Source of the DNA: Pseudomonadota bacterium
Lineage (GTDB): Bacteria > Pseudomonadota > Gammaproteobacteria > Acidiferrobacterales > Acidiferrobacteraceae
Reading direction: 5' to 3'
Assembly (NCBI GenBank): GCA_021777535.1
Contig: JAJYDN010000003.1
Span: 1 to 64,000 of the forward strand
Length of the DNA: 64,000 nt
The notes under the pieces were generated by a model that saw nothing but the letters and a program-made list of their open reading frames with translations, had not been told where the DNA came from and ran no database searches. Shown here piece by piece: positions 2-39,914 of this stretch. A program made the translations under genes and the position numbers. Numbering within the stretch: position 1 is the stretch's first letter; each line of letters begins with the position of its first letter.

Positions 2-292
2 ACGCTCACCGAAGAGAGCGGGCAGGAGGCCGGATCCTTGCCTGCATGGACGGCGGCCCAGCATCCGCTGGCCGCGCCGGTGTCGGGGAGCGTGTGGCGT
101 ATCGGTGTACGGGAGGGAGAGCGGGTCAATGCCGGGGATGTGATCATGACGATCGAATCGATGAAGATGGAGATCCATATCGAGGCGGGCCGGACAGGGA
201 TCATGGAGCGGATCTTGTGCCAGGAGGGTTGCGCGGTCGATGCGGGCGACATCGTGGCGGTGATTTCGGCGAGCGGGGAGGGGTGTGCCTGA
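2..292 (+). CDS. Urea carboxylase C-terminal biotinyl domain (5' partial)
   Basis: The reading frame is already open at the first bases, so the gene begins upstream of the window and only its last 96 residues are seen. They form a biotin carboxyl carrier (lipoyl-like) domain: a PVSGSVW lead-in and an ESMKME motif whose biotin-accepting lysine is the codon at 164-166. Biotinyl domains sit at the C-terminus of urea carboxylase and of acyl-CoA or pyruvate carboxylases. The immediately following allophanate hydrolase gene favours urea carboxylase, which turns urea, ATP and bicarbonate into allophanate. That assignment rests on context, because the catalytic domains lie outside the window. Confidence 0.8.
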   Translation, partial: TLTEESGQEAGSLPAWTAAQHPLAAPVSGSVWRIGVREGERVNAGDVIMTIESMKMEIHIEAGRTGIMERILCQEGCAVDAGDIVAVISASGEGCA

Positions 293-293
293 G

Positions 294-2052
294 ATGGACA
301 TGACGACGCTGCGTTTTGATATGAATACCCTGAACGATCTGTACCGGCGCCGCCGGTTGCGTCCGGAGGATGTGATCGAGCAGGTGTTTTCCCGGATCGA
401 GCGCGACCGGCGATATGGCGCCTGGATCAGCTGGTTCGATGCAAAGGGCCTGGCGCCGTATCTCGAGCGCTTACGGGCGTTATCGCCTGAACTAAAGCCA
501 CTCTATGGCGTGCCGTTTGCCGTGAAGGACAACATCGATGTGGCTGGTCTGCCGACCACTGCAGGCTGTCCGGCTTACGCCTACCATCCAGAGCAATCGG
601 CCGCGGTCGTGGAGAAACTGGTCGAGCAGGGCGCGATCCCGATCGGCAAGACGAATATGGATCAATTTGCCACGGGTCTCAATGGCACCCGGTCGCCTTA
701 CGGGATCTGCCGCAATGCCTTTGATCCCGGCTATATTGCCGGCGGATCCAGTTCCGGGTCGGCTGTTGCACTCGCTCGCGGCCACGTCGGTTTCGCGCTG
801 GGAACCGATACGGCCGGATCGGGGCGGGTACCGGCCGCCCTGCAGGGTCTGATCGGACATAAACCCACACGCGGGGTGCTGTCGGCCCAGGGGGTTGTGC
901 CAGCCTGCCGGTCCCTTGATACCGTATCGATATTCGCCTACACGGCCGGGGATGCCGAGATCATCCTGGGTGTTGCGGCGTTTCCGGATGTCCGTGATCC
1001 CCATAGCCGCCCATTGCGCCCCCACGGGGTCGATTTTTCGGCGGTCAACCCGTTGCGGGTCGCCATACCGCGCGCGGCAGACCGGGAGTTTTTTGGCGAT
1101 CACGAAGCGGCCGCGTTGTTTGGCGCCTACGTGGAGCGGCTGCGCGCCCTGGGCGCCGCCGTATCGGAAATCGACTGGGCACCGTTTCGGCGGGCGGGTG
1201 CCTTGCTCTACGAGAGTGCCCTGGTCGCCGAGCGGCTGGAGGCGGCGGGCGCCTTGCTGCGTACCCGATCCTCTGCGCTGCTTGCGCCTTTGCGCGAGAT
1301 CCTGGGTCCGGCCGGGCGCTACACGGCGCGGGAGGTGTTTGATGCCCAGCATGCCCTGAAGGTTTTGCAGATGCAGACCCGCGAGGTCTGGGAGCGGGTC
1401 GATGTGCTCGTGGTGCCGACGGCGCCGACGATCTTTACCGTAGGAGAGATGCAGGCCGATCCCGTGGGCGCCAACACCAAGCTCGAGTTGTACACCAGCT
1501 TCGTCAATCTGCGCGATCTCGCCGCCACCGCCGTGCCGGGCGGGGTACGCAAGAACGGTACCGTTTGGCGTCACGCTGGTGGCGCCGGCGCATCAGGATG
1601 GCCCCCTGCTGCATCTTGCTGCGCGGCTGACGGCGACGCCGCGGGCGGCGGTCGCGTTGCCGGCCAATCGGGCCCTGGTGGCGGTGGTGGCGGCCCACTT
1701 GCGCGGGCAGCCGCTGAACGGGGACTTGACGAGTCGCGGTGCCCGGTATGTGGCCACGACCGTGACGGCCCCGGGGTACCGGCTCTGCCTGTTGCCCGGT
1801 TCCGTGTTGCGGGCGGGTCTGGTACCGGCAGCCGACGGAGGCGCGATCGAAGTCGAGATATGGGAGATGGACCATGGCGCCCTGGGATCGCTGCTGCAGG
1901 AGATCGAGGCGCCACTGGCCATGGGCCGCGTGCACCTCGGCGATCGCGAGGTGACGGGCTTTATCTGTCCGGATCCCGGACCGGGCGCCCGCGACATCAC
2001 CGCTTATGGAGGATTCCGCCAGTATGTGCAGGCTGCGGCCAGGCTGTCCTGA
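294..2052 (+). pseudogene. atzF: Allophanate hydrolase, frameshifted
   Basis: This amidase-signature enzyme converts allophanate to ammonium and CO2, the second step of the urea carboxylase route. The first part carries the Ser-Ser-Lys triad: AVKDNID lysine, GGSSSGSA serine and GTDTAGSG serine. Near 1557-1561 the frame breaks. After ...RKNG the expected PFGVTLVAPA sequence continues in another frame (from 1561), which encodes the complete C-terminal domain to the stop at 2052. Two bases appear to be missing. The unshifted frame runs on to 2123 with non-homologous sequence. The ATG at 294 follows a GGGGAGGGG ribosome site and overlaps nothing essential of the upstream gene. Either a true pseudogene or a sequencing error; the amidase domain itself is nearly intact. 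Confidence 0.85.
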
Positions 2053-2077: not shown

Positions 2078-2086
2078 TGCTAGAAT
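2078..2086 (+). promoter_or_regulatory. Extended -10 promoter element
   Basis: TGC followed by TAGAAT forms an extended -10 box 34 bases before the ATG at 2120. No good -35 is visible at standard spacing. The same TGCTAGAAT string occurs upstream of aroF on the other strand. Confidence 0.45.
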
Positions 2087-2119
2087 GGGCGCTTGTACCC
2101 ATCTGGTGCAACATCGTTC

Positions 2120-5100
2120 ATGAGTCAAATTGCCGGCGCCCGGATTCGCGAGATCCCCTATAATTACACGTCCTTTTCGGATCGGGAGATCGTGATCCGG
2201 TTTCTCGGCGAACCGATGTGGGAAGTGCTGAACAGCCTGCGGGCGGCCCGTGTTACGGGACGTTCGGCGCGCATGCTGTTCGAAGTCCTGGGTGATATGT
2301 GGGTGGTGGGCCGCAATCCCTTCATCCAGGACGATCTGATGGCGCACGACAAGCGTCTGCGCTCGCTGATCGAGGCCCTCCACCATCGGCTCGACCAGAT
2401 CGTGATTCGGGCCCAGGGCAACAGCGAGGCCCTGGCGCTGGCGGCAGCGGCGCGAGGAGCGGTGAAGGAGTTCGAGGCGCGCTTTCCGCGGGACCGGGCA
2501 CTGCGCAAGAAGGTGATGCGCGTCCTGTCGCGGGTCACCCGCCGCGACAACATCGATTTCAGCGGCTATGCGCGTTCGGCCCATGTGACGGACGCGACGG
2601 ACTGGCGGGTCGAGTTGCCCTTTGTCGTGATAAACCCCGACAGCGAGGCGGAGATCCAGAAAATCGTACAGGGTTGCATCGATCTGGGCCTGACCATCAT
2701 TCCCCGCGGGGGCGGCACCGGTTATACGGGGGGCGCGGTGCCGCTTTATACCGACACCGCCATCATCAATACGGAAAAGCTCGAAAGTCTCGGCGCCGTC
2801 GAGATGCGGATGCTGCCGGGTGTCGATGCGCCCGTGCCGGCGATACGGGCAGGGGCCGGCGTGGTGACCATCCGTGTGACGGAGGCGGCCGAACGGGCCG
2901 GGCTGTCGTTTGCCGTTGATCCGACCTCACAGGATGCCTCGACGATCGGCGGCAACATCGCCATGAATGCGGGCGGCAAGAAGGCAGTCTTGTGGGGCAC
3001 TACCCTCGACAATCTCGCGTCCTGGCGCATGGTCACGCCGGATGCCTCGTGGCTCGAGGTCGAGCGCGTTCACCACAATCTCGGCAAGATTCACGAGGAG
3101 GCGGAGGTAGAATTCAGCATCCGCCGTTTCGAGGCCGATGGCAAAACCCCGCGTGGGCCGGCGGAGACCGTCCGGTTGCCCGGTGCGGCACTCCGCCGCG
3201 CCGGTCTCGGCAAGGATGTCACGGACAAGTTCCTCGGGGGCCTGCCCGGCATCCAGAAGGAAGGCTGCGACGGGCTCATCACCTCGGCGGTCTTCATCCT
3301 GCACAAGAAGCCGCTGTATACCCGCACGGTCTGTCTTGAGTTCTTCGGCGCGGATCTGCGCCAGGCGGTACCTGCCATCATGGAGATCAAGGACTATCCG
3401 CAGATCCACCCCGGTGTGGCGCTGGCGGGTCTCGAGCACCTGGATGACCGGTATCTGCGCGCGGTCCGCTACAGCACCAAGTCGCCACGCCACGAACTGC
3501 CGAAGATGGTCCTTCTGGCCGATGTGGCCGGCGATGACGAACGGCAGGTGGGTGAGGCGGCGGCGGCCTTTGTCCGCATCGCCAATGCCCGCGCGGGCGA
3601 GGGTTTCGTGGCGGTCAGCGCCGAGGCGCGCCGCCGCTTCTGGGCGGACCGGGCCAAGACCGCCGCCATTGCGGCGCACACCAACGCGTTCAAGATCAAT
3701 GAGGACGTGGTGATTCCGCTCGAGCGCCTGGCGGATTACAGCGAAGGCGTCGAGCGCATCAACATCGAGGAGTCGATCGGCAACAAGCTGAAGATCCTGG
3801 ATGCGATCAGCGGCTATCTGCGTGAAGGGGGGGCTGATGTAAAGCCCCAGGGCCAGTACGAGGAAAGCGCCGAAAGCAGCGAAATCACGGCGGCCAAGGT
3901 GCAGGGGGCGCTTGCCCACATTGCCGCCATCCGTGCGCGCTGGGCCCTGATCGGCAGTCATCTGGATCGGCCGCTTGCCGAACTGCCGGCGATTGCGGCG
4001 GATGTTCCCATGGAGCCGGCTGGCGCCACCGTGCTCCAGGTGTTGCTGTGCCGTGCCCTGCGCATCTCCTACAGGCGGGAGGTCGGGCACGTACTGAACG
4101 ACATATTCGGGGGACAGGAGTGGATGGCGGTCCGCCGCCGCATCCAGGACATTCACGCGCAGGTGCGCACGAGCCGGCTGTTCGTCGCCCTGCACATGCA
4201 CGCCGGCGATGGCAATGTGCATACGAATATCCCCGTCAACTCGAACGACTATGACATGATGCGGTCCGCCGATCAGATCGTCGACCGTGTCATGTCGCTG
4301 GCAACCGCGCTCGGTGGCGTCATATCAGGGGAGCATGGGATCGGCATGACGAAGCTGCGCTACCTCGACCAGGGAGCGCAAGCGGCATTTGCCGCCTACA
4401 AAGACCGCATCGACCCGCAAGGCCGCTTCAACCGCGGCAAGCTCCTTGCCGGCGGCGGCCTCGATCGCGCGTACACGCCGTCTTTGCGCCTGGTGCAGCA
4501 GGAGGCCTTGATCCTCGAGCGCAGTGAACTGGGCGATCTGAACGATGCGATACGCAACTGCCTGCGCTGCGGCAAGTGCAAGCCCGTCTGCACGACGCAC
4601 GTGCCACGCGCGAACCTCCTGTATTCCCCGCGGAACAAGATCCTGGCCACCGGGCTTATCATCGAAGCGTTCCTCTACGAGGAACAGACGCGGCGCGGCA
4701 TCTCCATACAGCATTTCGACGGCATGGCCGATGTCGCGGATCACTGCACCGTTTGCCACAAATGCGTTACTCCGTGTCCGGTCGACATAGATTTTGGCGA
4801 TGTCTCGATTCGCATGCGGGCCATCCTGAACGCCCAGGGCAAGCGGCGCATGAGCATCGGAACGCGCGCCTCGATGGCATTCCTGAATGTCACCGATCCG
4901 GCGACTGTGCGGTTGATGCGCACGGCGATGATCGAGTGGGGCTACAAGGCCCAGCTTTTTGGCCACAGGCTCGTGCGGCGCCTGGTCCCTCCCCGGCGGG
5001 GGGCGCCCCCGGCGACGACCGGCAAGACGCCGCTGCCGGCGCAGGTCATTCATTTCTTCAAAAAGCCCATGCCGGCCAATCTTCCGCGCCAGACGATGCG

Positions 5101-5965
5101 GGCGCTGCTTGGGCTCGAGGACAACAAGTTTGTCTCCATCCTGCGGGATCCCGCCAGGATCAACGAGGACACGGACGCCGTCTTCTATTTCCCCGGATGC
5201 GGTTCCGAGCGGCTGTTCAGCCAGGTCGGGATCGCCACCCTGGCCATGCTGTATGCGGTGGGGGCGCAGACCGTGCTGCCGCCGGGCTATCTCTGCTGCG
5301 GATATCCGCAGACATCGGTAGGCGATGAGGCGCAGGGGCGGAAGATCACCACCGATAACCGGGTATTGTTCCACCGGGTGGCGAACACGCTCAATTATCT
5401 CGACATCAAAACCGTCATCGTGTCGTGCGGAACGTGCATGGACCAGCTCCTGAAGTATGAGTTCGAGCAGATTTTCCCTGGCTGCCGCCTGCTCGACATC
5501 CATGAATATCTGATGGAAAAGGGTGTGCGCGTCGACGATGTGGGGGGCGTGCAGTACATGTACCACGATCCTTGCCATACGCCGATGAAGACCCACAATC
5601 CCCTCACGGTGGCCCGCACGCTGATGGGGGAGGGGGTTCAACTGTCAGACCGGTGTTGCGGCGAGGCGGGGACCTTTGCGGTTTCCCGGCCCGACATCGC
5701 GACGCAGGTCCGCTTTCGCAAGGAAGAAGAGTTGCGCAGCGGCATCCAGCAACTGACGGGCGCACCGAAGGCGCATGACGGGGGCGTGAAGATCCTGACC
5801 TCGTGCCCGGCCTGCCTGCAGGGATTGTCGCGCTACCGGGAAGACACGGGTCTCGATGCCGACTACATCGTCGTGGAAGCTGCCCGCAAACGGCTGGGTG
5901 AGGCATGGCAGCAGCACTTCATCGACGCGGCGCGCGCCGGCGGGATCGAGCGCGTACTGCTCTAG
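2120..5965 (+). CDS. FAD-binding and Fe-S oxidoreductase (DUF3683, GlcD/GlcF-like fusion)
   Basis: A 1281-residue protein. Residues about 1-140 match the DUF3683 type of N-terminus. An FAD-binding PCMH domain follows, with [10 protein letters not shown] near residue 195, then an FAD-oxidase C-terminal region with [12 protein letters not shown] near 692 and [10 protein letters not shown]. Two 4Fe-4S motifs follow ([11 protein letters not shown] near 814, [12 protein letters not shown] near 876), then two cysteine-rich CCG modules ([27 protein letters not shown]). The order equals glycolate or lactate oxidase subunits GlcD plus GlcF on one chain, so it probably oxidises a 2-hydroxy acid and passes electrons to a membrane carrier. 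The substrate cannot be read from sequence. The start is ATG 2120; an in-frame TTG at 2093 is less likely. Confidence 0.9.
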
Positions 5966-6051: not shown

Positions 6052-7479
6052 CTACTGCAGCGTTATGACGATGTAGATGCTCTGGTCTCCGTGACGGATG
6101 AGGACCGGGACGGGGGTCCGGACCGGCAGGCTTGCGACCAGGTGCGCGAACTGTGCCGGACTCGTCACCGCCTGGCTTGCCATCTCCTGGATGATCATGC
6201 CCGGCATGATGCCGGCCGCTTCCGCGGGCCCGCGGCTTACGGTCAGCACCACCACGCCGTGATGGATGTCCATGTCGCTCAGCGCTTCGGGCGTCAGCGG
6301 TCCCACCTCCATGTCGAGGCGCGGGATCGACTCGGTGGTGCTGGTATTCTGGTGCAGGCTGTTTGGCAGCGTGCCAACCTCTACCCGTAATGTCATGGGA
6401 CGGCCGTCGCGCATGATGCCGATTGGCACCACCGCACCGGGTTCCGTGTTGCCCACGAGCGGCGGCAACTGTCCAACGCTGTACACCGGCTTGTTGTCGT
6501 AGGTGATGATGACGTCACCGCGCTTTAGGCCGGCGTGCGCCGCGGGTCCCTTGCGGACCAGTCCCGCAATGAGGGCGCCGACGGGCTCCTTCAGCCGCAT
6601 GGCGCGGGCCATCTCACTGCTCACGCCCTGGACGTCGACGCCAAGCCAGCCGAATTTGATCTGCTGGTGTTTCTCCAGTGCCTGGACGACGCGCATCGCG
6701 GTGTTGATCGGAATCGAGAACGACAGGCCCATGTAGCCGCCGTTGCTCGTGTAGATCTGATCGTTTATGCCGACCACCTGTCCGCGCATGTTGAACAGCG
6801 GGCCACCCGAATTGCCGGGATTGATCGGCACGTCGCTCTGGATGAACGGAATGTATTCGTCGTCGGAAAGCGGGCGGTTGATGGCGCTTACCACCCCCTG
6901 GGTCACGGTGTTGTAGAAACCGAAGGGGGCGCCGACGGCGAGCAGCCACTGGCCGGCCTCCAGTTTGTCGGAATCGCCCAGCGGCACAATCGGCAGATCA
7001 TGCGCCTCGATCTTCAAGAGGGCCGTGTCGTAGCGTACCGACAGCCCCACGAGCCGGGCCTTGTAGACGTGATGGTTGGACAGTCCCACGACGATGTGGG
7101 TCGCCCCGCGCACGACGTGCGCGGCAGTGACGATGTAGCCGTTGCGGCTGATGATGAAGCCCGAACCCAGCGACTCGATCTTCTCCTTGTGCGACGGCGC
7201 GCCATTGGGGGCCGAGAAGAAATGCTGGAAGAACGGATAGAAAGGATTGTTGGGCGGCAGCGGATTGACCGGCAACTGGTTATGCACCAGGCGGGTGCTC
7301 GTGCTGCTGATGTTGACGACCGCCGGTCCGTAGGCTTTGACGATGGACGTGAAATTCGGCAAGGCGACCATCGGATCGGCCGCCATTGCGCCTTGCATTG
7401 CCACGGCGCCATACAGTCCTAGACCAAACGCGAATGCCTTCAGTCGACGACGAATGGACCGGTCCTTTCTGTGACCCAT
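6052..7479 (-). CDS. Periplasmic Do/HtrA-family serine protease
   Basis: A 475-residue trypsin-fold protease for periplasmic protein quality control. A hydrophobic signal peptide ends at about QGAMA-ADP. The catalytic triad is visible: TAAHVV histidine near 120, YDTALLK aspartate near 150, and NPGNSGGP serine near 223. Two PDZ regions follow (GWLGVDV onward and the C-terminal AAGIMPG region). Length and layout match DegP/DegQ/MucD. The ATG at 7479 was chosen because GAGGAGAG lies just before it and the signal peptide then begins with a normal basic n-region. A long leader upstream holds a candidate promoter. No neighbouring anti-sigma or rpoE genes are present to refine the name. Confidence 0.93.
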   Translation of the reverse strand: MGHRKDRSIRRRLKAFAFGLGLYGAVAMQGAMAADPMVALPNFTSIVKAYGPAVVNISSTSTRLVHNQLPVNPLPPNNPFYPFFQHFFSAPNGAPSHKEKIESLGSGFIISRNGYIVTAAHVVRGATHIVVGLSNHHVYKARLVGLSVRYDTALLKIEAHDLPIVPLGDSDKLEAGQWLLAVGAPFGFYNTVTQGVVSAINRPLSDDEYIPFIQSDVPINPGNSGGPLFNMRGQVVGINDQIYTSNGGYMGLSFSIPINTAMRVVQALEKHQQIKFGWLGVDVQGVSSEMARAMRLKEPVGALIAGLVRKGPAAHAGLKRGDVIITYDNKPVYSVGQLPPLVGNTEPGAVVPIGIMRDGRPMTLRVEVGTLPNSLHQNTSTTESIPRLDMEVGPLTPEALSDMDIHHGVVVLTVSRGPAEAAGIMPGMIIQEMASQAVTSPAQFAHLVASLPVRTPVPVLIRHGDQSIYIVITLQ

Positions 7480-7595
7480 GAAACTCTCCTCATCAATAGC
7501 GCATCGGCGCCCATGGACGAAATGCACGCACGCACAATCCTCATGTCCGCCCCCGTTTAGGGGGCGCATCCATCGTCCGTGATGTGCCGGCTTTG

Positions 7596-39905: not shown

Positions 39906-39914
39906 GACAAGGGT

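Follow-up and report, generated by a model that had tools for sequence, protein, structure and literature searches.

Does an allophanate hydrolase gene whose reading frame changes near a contig end mark a pathway that its host has lost or a fault in the assembly, and which pathway would be affected? The question arises at the start of the window, by which we mean the whole 64,000-nucleotide stretch of Acidiferrobacteraceae DNA that was analysed (G000:C11:1-64000, G000 being the source genome); window base 1 is a contig end. There is nothing unusual in itself about a draft genome with a catabolic gene out of frame, and this assembly consists of 76 contigs, with an estimated contamination of 0.64%, a figure that does not measure strain mixture.

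Table 1. Features of the operon end, its intact neighbour and the comparison loci (window positions unless a locus is named).
Feature	Location	Strand	Evidence or remark
Guanidine-type urea carboxylase, C-terminal end (biotinyl domain, ESMKM)	2..292	+	Biotin_lipoyl 60.7 bits; TIGR02712 positions 1128-1200; tblastn with G002 carboxylase, residues 1124-1213
Allophanate hydrolase, amidase part, frame 3	294..1559	+	NF006043 547 bits and Pfam Amidase 265.9 bits on 285-1559
Frame break, GGT / one base / CCG	1557..1563	+	Sequence; adjoining matches in two frames
Allophanate hydrolase, last amidase-fold stretch and C-terminal AH_C domain, frame 1	1561..2052	+	AH_C PF21986 120 bits; NF006043 positions 422-597
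FAD-oxidase/CCG-domain fusion with DUF3683, intact neighbour	2084..5965	+	Pfam and NCBIfam matches; single-frame match, 88% identical to G002
Scar of deleted guanidine operon	L147:3251-3865 (G001:C20)		615 bases; between flanks that are intact in G000
Sister-genus carboxylase	L214:5747-9085 (G007:C1:1453746-1457084); also L048, L049, L051, L052, L053	+	

The preliminary description had seen two family-matching frames with one base where a codon is expected, and this is what the sequence contains: GGT at 1557-1559, a single A at 1560 and CCG at 1561-1563. The upstream frame, with ATG 294 and a GTG in frame at 285, stays open to 2123. Its piece 285-1559 matches NF006043 over positions 4-420 of 600, above the cut-off of 487 bits, and reaches 507.0 bits against TIGR02713, below the cut-off of 511.05; the downstream piece 1561-2052 far exceeds the AH_C cut-off of 27 bits. 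The amidase domain and the AH_C domain of the family are both present, the latter in a different frame, and one continuous reading frame is absent. The GGSSSGSA and VKDNID stretches of the N-terminal piece presumably have a catalytic role. They form its Ser-Ser-Lys signature region and were aligned to PDB entries 4cp8 and 4gyr via the protein of the congener G002. Like AtzF of Pseudomonas sp. ADP (4cp8) and the 4gyr protein, the hydrolase has recognisable amidase and C-terminal domains; unlike AtzF, it changes frame about 20 residues before the aligned amidase core ends, at position ~456 of the 487-residue 4cp8 chain, with the alignment continuing to 477. The downstream part had been called a well-preserved C-terminal half; it is well preserved, but with ~163 of ~590 residues it is not a half.

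The closest relatives of the hydrolase are those of G002 (same genus) and G017, to which it is 78% and 81% identical; the piece 294..1559 is 78-81% identical to G002 and G017, and the piece 1561..2052 is 76-78% identical to G017 and G002. Comparison with relatives, proposed earlier as a check, bears out the break: in both genomes one frame runs through the site, and the matching ends are separated by exactly one codon. No further member of the species was among the 60 genomes searched, G000 included. The amidase domain was matched at 91 other loci (G002 and G017 included), of which 78 have the C-terminal-domain match in place and 13 lack it; the two domains share one frame in 76 of the 78 and are shifted in two (L012, L086). 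Because G002 and G017 are open at the site and 76 of 78 homologous loci keep one frame, the break is real in the assembled sequence and is not a feature of the family. We found no second lesion in the hydrolase gene and no second copy in G000, where the runner-up is an amidase of 40% identity. Two allophanate hydrolases elsewhere also have their C-terminal domain in a different frame from the amidase domain, one in Methylophilus aquaticus (L086:10001-11742) and one, inspected residue by residue, in G003 (L042:7532-9198, G003:C10); G003 has no match to a urea- or guanidine-type carboxylase.

The hydrolase gene could be alive despite the shift, through programmed frameshifting or as two separately translated halves, but we consider this very improbable. 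GTG 1579 could start a 157-residue C-terminal protein, and the amidase part of AtzF is active by itself according to PMC3944691. Against this, the break precedes the end of the amidase fold, inspection by eye shows no Shine-Dalgarno-like stretch ahead of 1579 and neither a slippery run nor an in-frame stop at 1557-1563, nearly all homologues keep one frame, and the carboxylase gene of the same operon is broken too (see below).

The identity of the pathway follows from the other side of the contig gap. Of the carboxylase, which is cut at window base 1, just the final 96 codons are in the window; the remaining gene lies on contig G000:C6, from base 2 to about 3306 on the minus strand. Upstream of it on C6 are ABC transporter genes, UAAP1- and UAAP2-type genes and two guanidine riboswitches: Guanidine-I at L039 (C6) 7389-7489, minus strand (80.8 bits, gathering threshold 63), and Guanidine-II at L039 (C6) 3287-3330, minus strand, directly before the carboxylase (37.8 bits, threshold 32). 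The UAAP1 and UAAP2 matches score 284.8 bits (cut-off 205.95) and 316.9 bits (cut-off 284.7), and we take these families to be the two subunits of carboxyguanidine deiminase. This assignment fits PMC12186494 and PMC11410670. Apart from the carboxylase and the hydrolase, every gene of the operon has an open frame and matches a protein family along most of its length. The same contig carries a fluoride riboswitch at L039:15938-16002 (+), with a syntenic copy in the congener G001 (L147:13509-13573).

According to PMC11410670, guanidine carboxylases require aspartates at positions 1330 and 1584 of the Kluyveromyces lactis enzyme. G000 has both, the first in GAIDFTGD and the second in LGLGDVYLG; the second position was counted by hand from the alignment, and its last few residues (beyond ~1577) rest on a shorter K. 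lactis chain. The G000 enzyme thus shares both aspartates with the guanidine carboxylase of that report, and has the biotinyl ESMKM motif; it differs in that its gene is split over two contigs and, on C6, over two frames. The gene order on C6 and in the window is that of the guanidine-assimilating enterobacteria Raoultella terrigena and Klebsiella michiganensis, in which, according to PMC12186494, importer and deiminase genes stand behind a Guanidine-I riboswitch and carboxylase and allophanate hydrolase behind a Guanidine-II riboswitch. Unlike in those operons, the carboxylase and the hydrolase of G000 are each out of frame in the assembly.

On the strength of the two riboswitches, the two deiminase-type genes and both signature aspartates, we read the locus as a guanidine operon, and the substrate, judged from these sequence features, is guanidine and not urea. 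The predicted chain runs from guanidine through carboxyguanidine and allophanate to ammonia and CO2, and "urea carboxylase route" would be the wrong name for it. The start of the window would then be the end of an operon for an ABC importer, a two-subunit carboxyguanidine deiminase, a guanidine carboxylase and an allophanate hydrolase, with two riboswitches. The preliminary description had the urea carboxylase route cut after allophanate while its carboxylase end remained. This does not hold: the window contains only the carboxylase tail, the part on C6 is also frame-changed, and the substrate is guanidine. No match to a urease alpha subunit, as a possible by-pass, was found in G000.

The second frame change lies in the carboxylase at C6:649 (L039:649), minus strand. 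In the numbering of the G002 protein, one frame covers residues 9-894, ending at C6:649, and another covers residues 895-1110, from C6:649 to C6:2. The match picks up again in the window at residue 1124, which leaves ~13 codons of a variable, poorly conserved linker missing between C6 and C11. The break falls in the carboxyl-transfer part, upstream of the biotinyl domain. The best single piece of the carboxylase scores 1250.2 bits against TIGR02712, and no piece reaches the cut-off of 1303.85; with the frame change at C6:649 and the contig gap, an intact carboxylase with BC, CT and BCCP domains is not found. None of 53 other loci with a carboxylase match is in more than one frame, although many are cut by the stretch examined and G017 has only residues 1114-1211. 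No second lesion was found in this gene either. Should both breaks be real, the first step of the pathway is the one that fails, and the hydrolase break is secondary.

The two breaks lie 649 and about 1560 bases from the facing contig ends inside the carboxylase gene, which suggests thin coverage there. On C6 the carboxylase match extends to base 2; on C11 it begins at base 5 at the protein level (weakly over the first ~40 bases) and at base 53 at the DNA level, and neither end sequence was found repeated elsewhere in the genome. With matches running to contig ends that are not repeated, missing coverage is likelier than a collapsed insertion element; an insertion element at the gap is not favoured, though a short foreign stretch at the C11 end is possible.

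We asked how local the breaks are by scanning 111 G000 gene loci (102 kb, with matches in 11 of 22 stretches) against the open reading frames of G001 and G002. Only two loci were broken, the carboxylase and the hydrolase. An earlier, cruder scan had flagged 5 of 68 loci, three of them falsely (near 39910, 49140 and 60900), where upstream neighbours lie in another frame. Run in reverse, the filtered scan gave 4 flags among 106 G001 loci and 1 among 61 G002 loci; judged by their positions, these are probably the same neighbouring-gene artefact. Genome-wide indel noise was rejected as the cause, with no other break in ~97 kb beyond the operon. At an upper-bound uniform rate of 3 events per 97 kb, two breaks in the ~5 kb of the operon have P = 0.011; because one of the two breaks had determined which place was examined, a fairer figure is the ~3% chance that the second falls in the carboxylase (3.3 of 102 kb). 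As only the two genes of this operon are broken among the loci compared, the cause is probably local, either loss of the operon or trouble at the contig gap.

Neither gene carries a clear sign of long relaxed selection in substitution counts or branch lengths. Carboxylase substitution counts in G000 are like those in G002 with three different outgroups (four were intended, and L081 was not found). In a tree with outgroups, the branch from the shared node to the N-terminal part of the hydrolase is 0.140 for G000 and 0.166 for G002, and that to the C-terminal part 0.179 against 0.128, at most a mild acceleration; the intact DUF3683 neighbour gives 0.077 and 0.080. Deviations at conserved sites number 9/114 in the hydrolase N part (G017 7/113, G002 8/113) and 3/31 in the C part (G017 3/31, G002 4/31). 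In the N part of the carboxylase they number 22/311 (0.071), above 49 of 50 other sequences (maximum 0.078), in a comparison that contained no full-length close relative. With G017 as outgroup, relative rates differed in the hydrolase C part (22 vs 8, p = 0.016) and less so in the N part (45 vs 32, p = 0.17). We rejected this excess as evidence of decay because the G017 hydrolase sits next to that of G002 in the tree (support 75 and 84) and is no outgroup. Of the marks of a long-inactive pseudogene, relaxed constraint or several lesions, neither was found: each gene has one lesion. The inactivation, if real, would be recent. "Very recent loss or sequencing error", the pair of readings offered at the outset, is still the right one, with no clear relaxed selection and no second lesion in the hydrolase.

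Between these two, we give about even chances to the reading that both frame changes are real small deletions, of recent date and independent origin, which have ended guanidine use in the G000 lineage. The carboxylase break would stop the first step of the pathway, and the hydrolase break would remove the last amidase-fold stretch and the C-terminal domain from the translated protein. That both frame changes are consensus or assembly errors at a poorly covered non-join of C6 and C11, the organism's guanidine operon being intact, is a serious competitor to which we give somewhat less than even chances. Both breaks flank the same contig gap, its non-repeated ends make missing coverage likelier than a collapsed insertion element, and neither gene has a second lesion or, in the carboxylase, raised rates; the hydrolase deviates at conserved sites about as much as G002 and G017 do, although the N part of the carboxylase stands above nearly all sequences compared. 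On the other hand, homopolymer runs are absent from both sites, the other contig ends showed no flagged break (0 among 17 further HSP loci lying no more than 2.5 kb from an end, a set that includes overlapping and antisense frames), and two errors would have had to hit by chance a pathway that is known to be lost in a congener. Genuine recent inactivation is slightly preferred because G001 has lost the operon and no other compared gene is broken; the shared unclosed gap, the otherwise intact state of both genes and the single genome count against it. A mixed population with broken and intact alleles, from which the assembly drew the broken ones and in which the gap reflects strain variation in the variable linker, is again very unlikely. 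The position of the gap in the poorly conserved linker and the many contigs would fit, but estimated contamination is low, for what that figure says about strain mixture.

The loss in the congener on which this preference leans can be followed in detail. In G001 (94% complete), the flanks, an adenylylsulfate kinase gene and the DUF3683 fusion, which is the right-hand flank and is syntenic in G001 and G002, lie ~0.6 kb apart and the operon between them is gone. The scar contains three parts in order: one similar to the Guanidine-I region of G002 (69.5%, E 1e-4; the weakest), one similar to hydrolase residues ~349-424 (76%, DNA E 5e-42) and one similar to residues ~535-593 and the downstream spacer (74%, DNA E 2e-39). 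At the protein level, the hydrolase end fragment (residues 547-593) reaches 59.3 bits, above the best of 200 shuffles (30.4 bits); the other two hydrolase matches, at 27.7 and 25.8 bits, are below this maximum and rest on the DNA match of E 5e-42. A riboswitch remnant is probable, though less certain than the hydrolase fragments: the shuffle control covered the protein-level matches, unrelated sequences reached E 0.006 in the DNA search that produced it, and Rfam found no guanidine riboswitch in the scar. The DUF3683 tree joins G001 and G002 as sisters (support 86) and leaves G000 outside. Together with the scar, this places the operon in the ancestor of all three and its loss in G001. Guanidine use would accordingly be dispensable here, the sister species G001 having already lost the whole operon by deletion. 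The scar in G001 and the breaks in G000 affect one operon at one genomic location, but G001 lost it by large deletions whereas G000 has one small lesion per gene.

Among the 18 genomes of the family that were searched, Guanidine-I was found in seven and Guanidine-II in seven, with both in G000, G002, G005, G007, G008 and G010. In G017, the open hydrolase (L040:5592-7064, G017:C61) follows a carboxylase of which only the biotinyl tail is left, with a tRNA gene upstream, and it groups with the hydrolase of G002, from another genus; horizontal transfer and a foreign or misbinned contig (contamination 4%) are both possible.

A further variant of the carboxylase occurs in six genomes of the sister genus (G005, G007, G008, G010, G012, G013). 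It is one open frame of 1015-1133 codons (cut by a contig end in G012) that ends before the biotinyl domain in all six, and in five of them it stands directly behind a Guanidine-II riboswitch, the site in G012 being cut off by the contig end. In all six the GGGGIGM loop is missing from the biotin-carboxylase part, and the ERDC...RRHQK and EVNTRLQVEH stretches are altered in all five readable sequences (G013 is masked), so that the ATP loop and the apparently catalytic motifs of this domain are lost. From known biotin carboxylases, loss of these motifs is expected to abolish biotin carboxylation. The enzyme retains both guanidine-type aspartates. Calculated for five of the six genomes, dN/dS is 0.30-0.41 for the biotin-carboxylase part and 0.07-0.13 for the transferase part, so both parts are constrained. 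Across 57 genomes of the order, matches to this carboxylase domain of at least 59% identity were found only in these six, and the next best by score is 36% identical. The pathway may have been dismantled stepwise across the family that contains Acidiferrobacter, with G000 having just lost both end enzymes and the sister-genus carboxylase being biotin-independent or acting in trans; we offer this only tentatively, as possible rather than probable. A limited literature search returned no description of a biotin-independent enzyme of this type in guanidine metabolism, and nothing on guanidine use by Acidiferrobacter.

For the organism, these observations correct the annotation from urea to guanidine and place the failure of the pathway, if it is broken, at its first step. 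They also set the break in a genus whose species differ in this operon: one has it open, a second has lost it and keeps a recognisable scar, and in a third its state is doubtful. This makes it possible to test there whether guanidine use has been lost. The biotin-less carboxylase of the sister genus is the more surprising lead and, if functional, would matter more than the hydrolase break.
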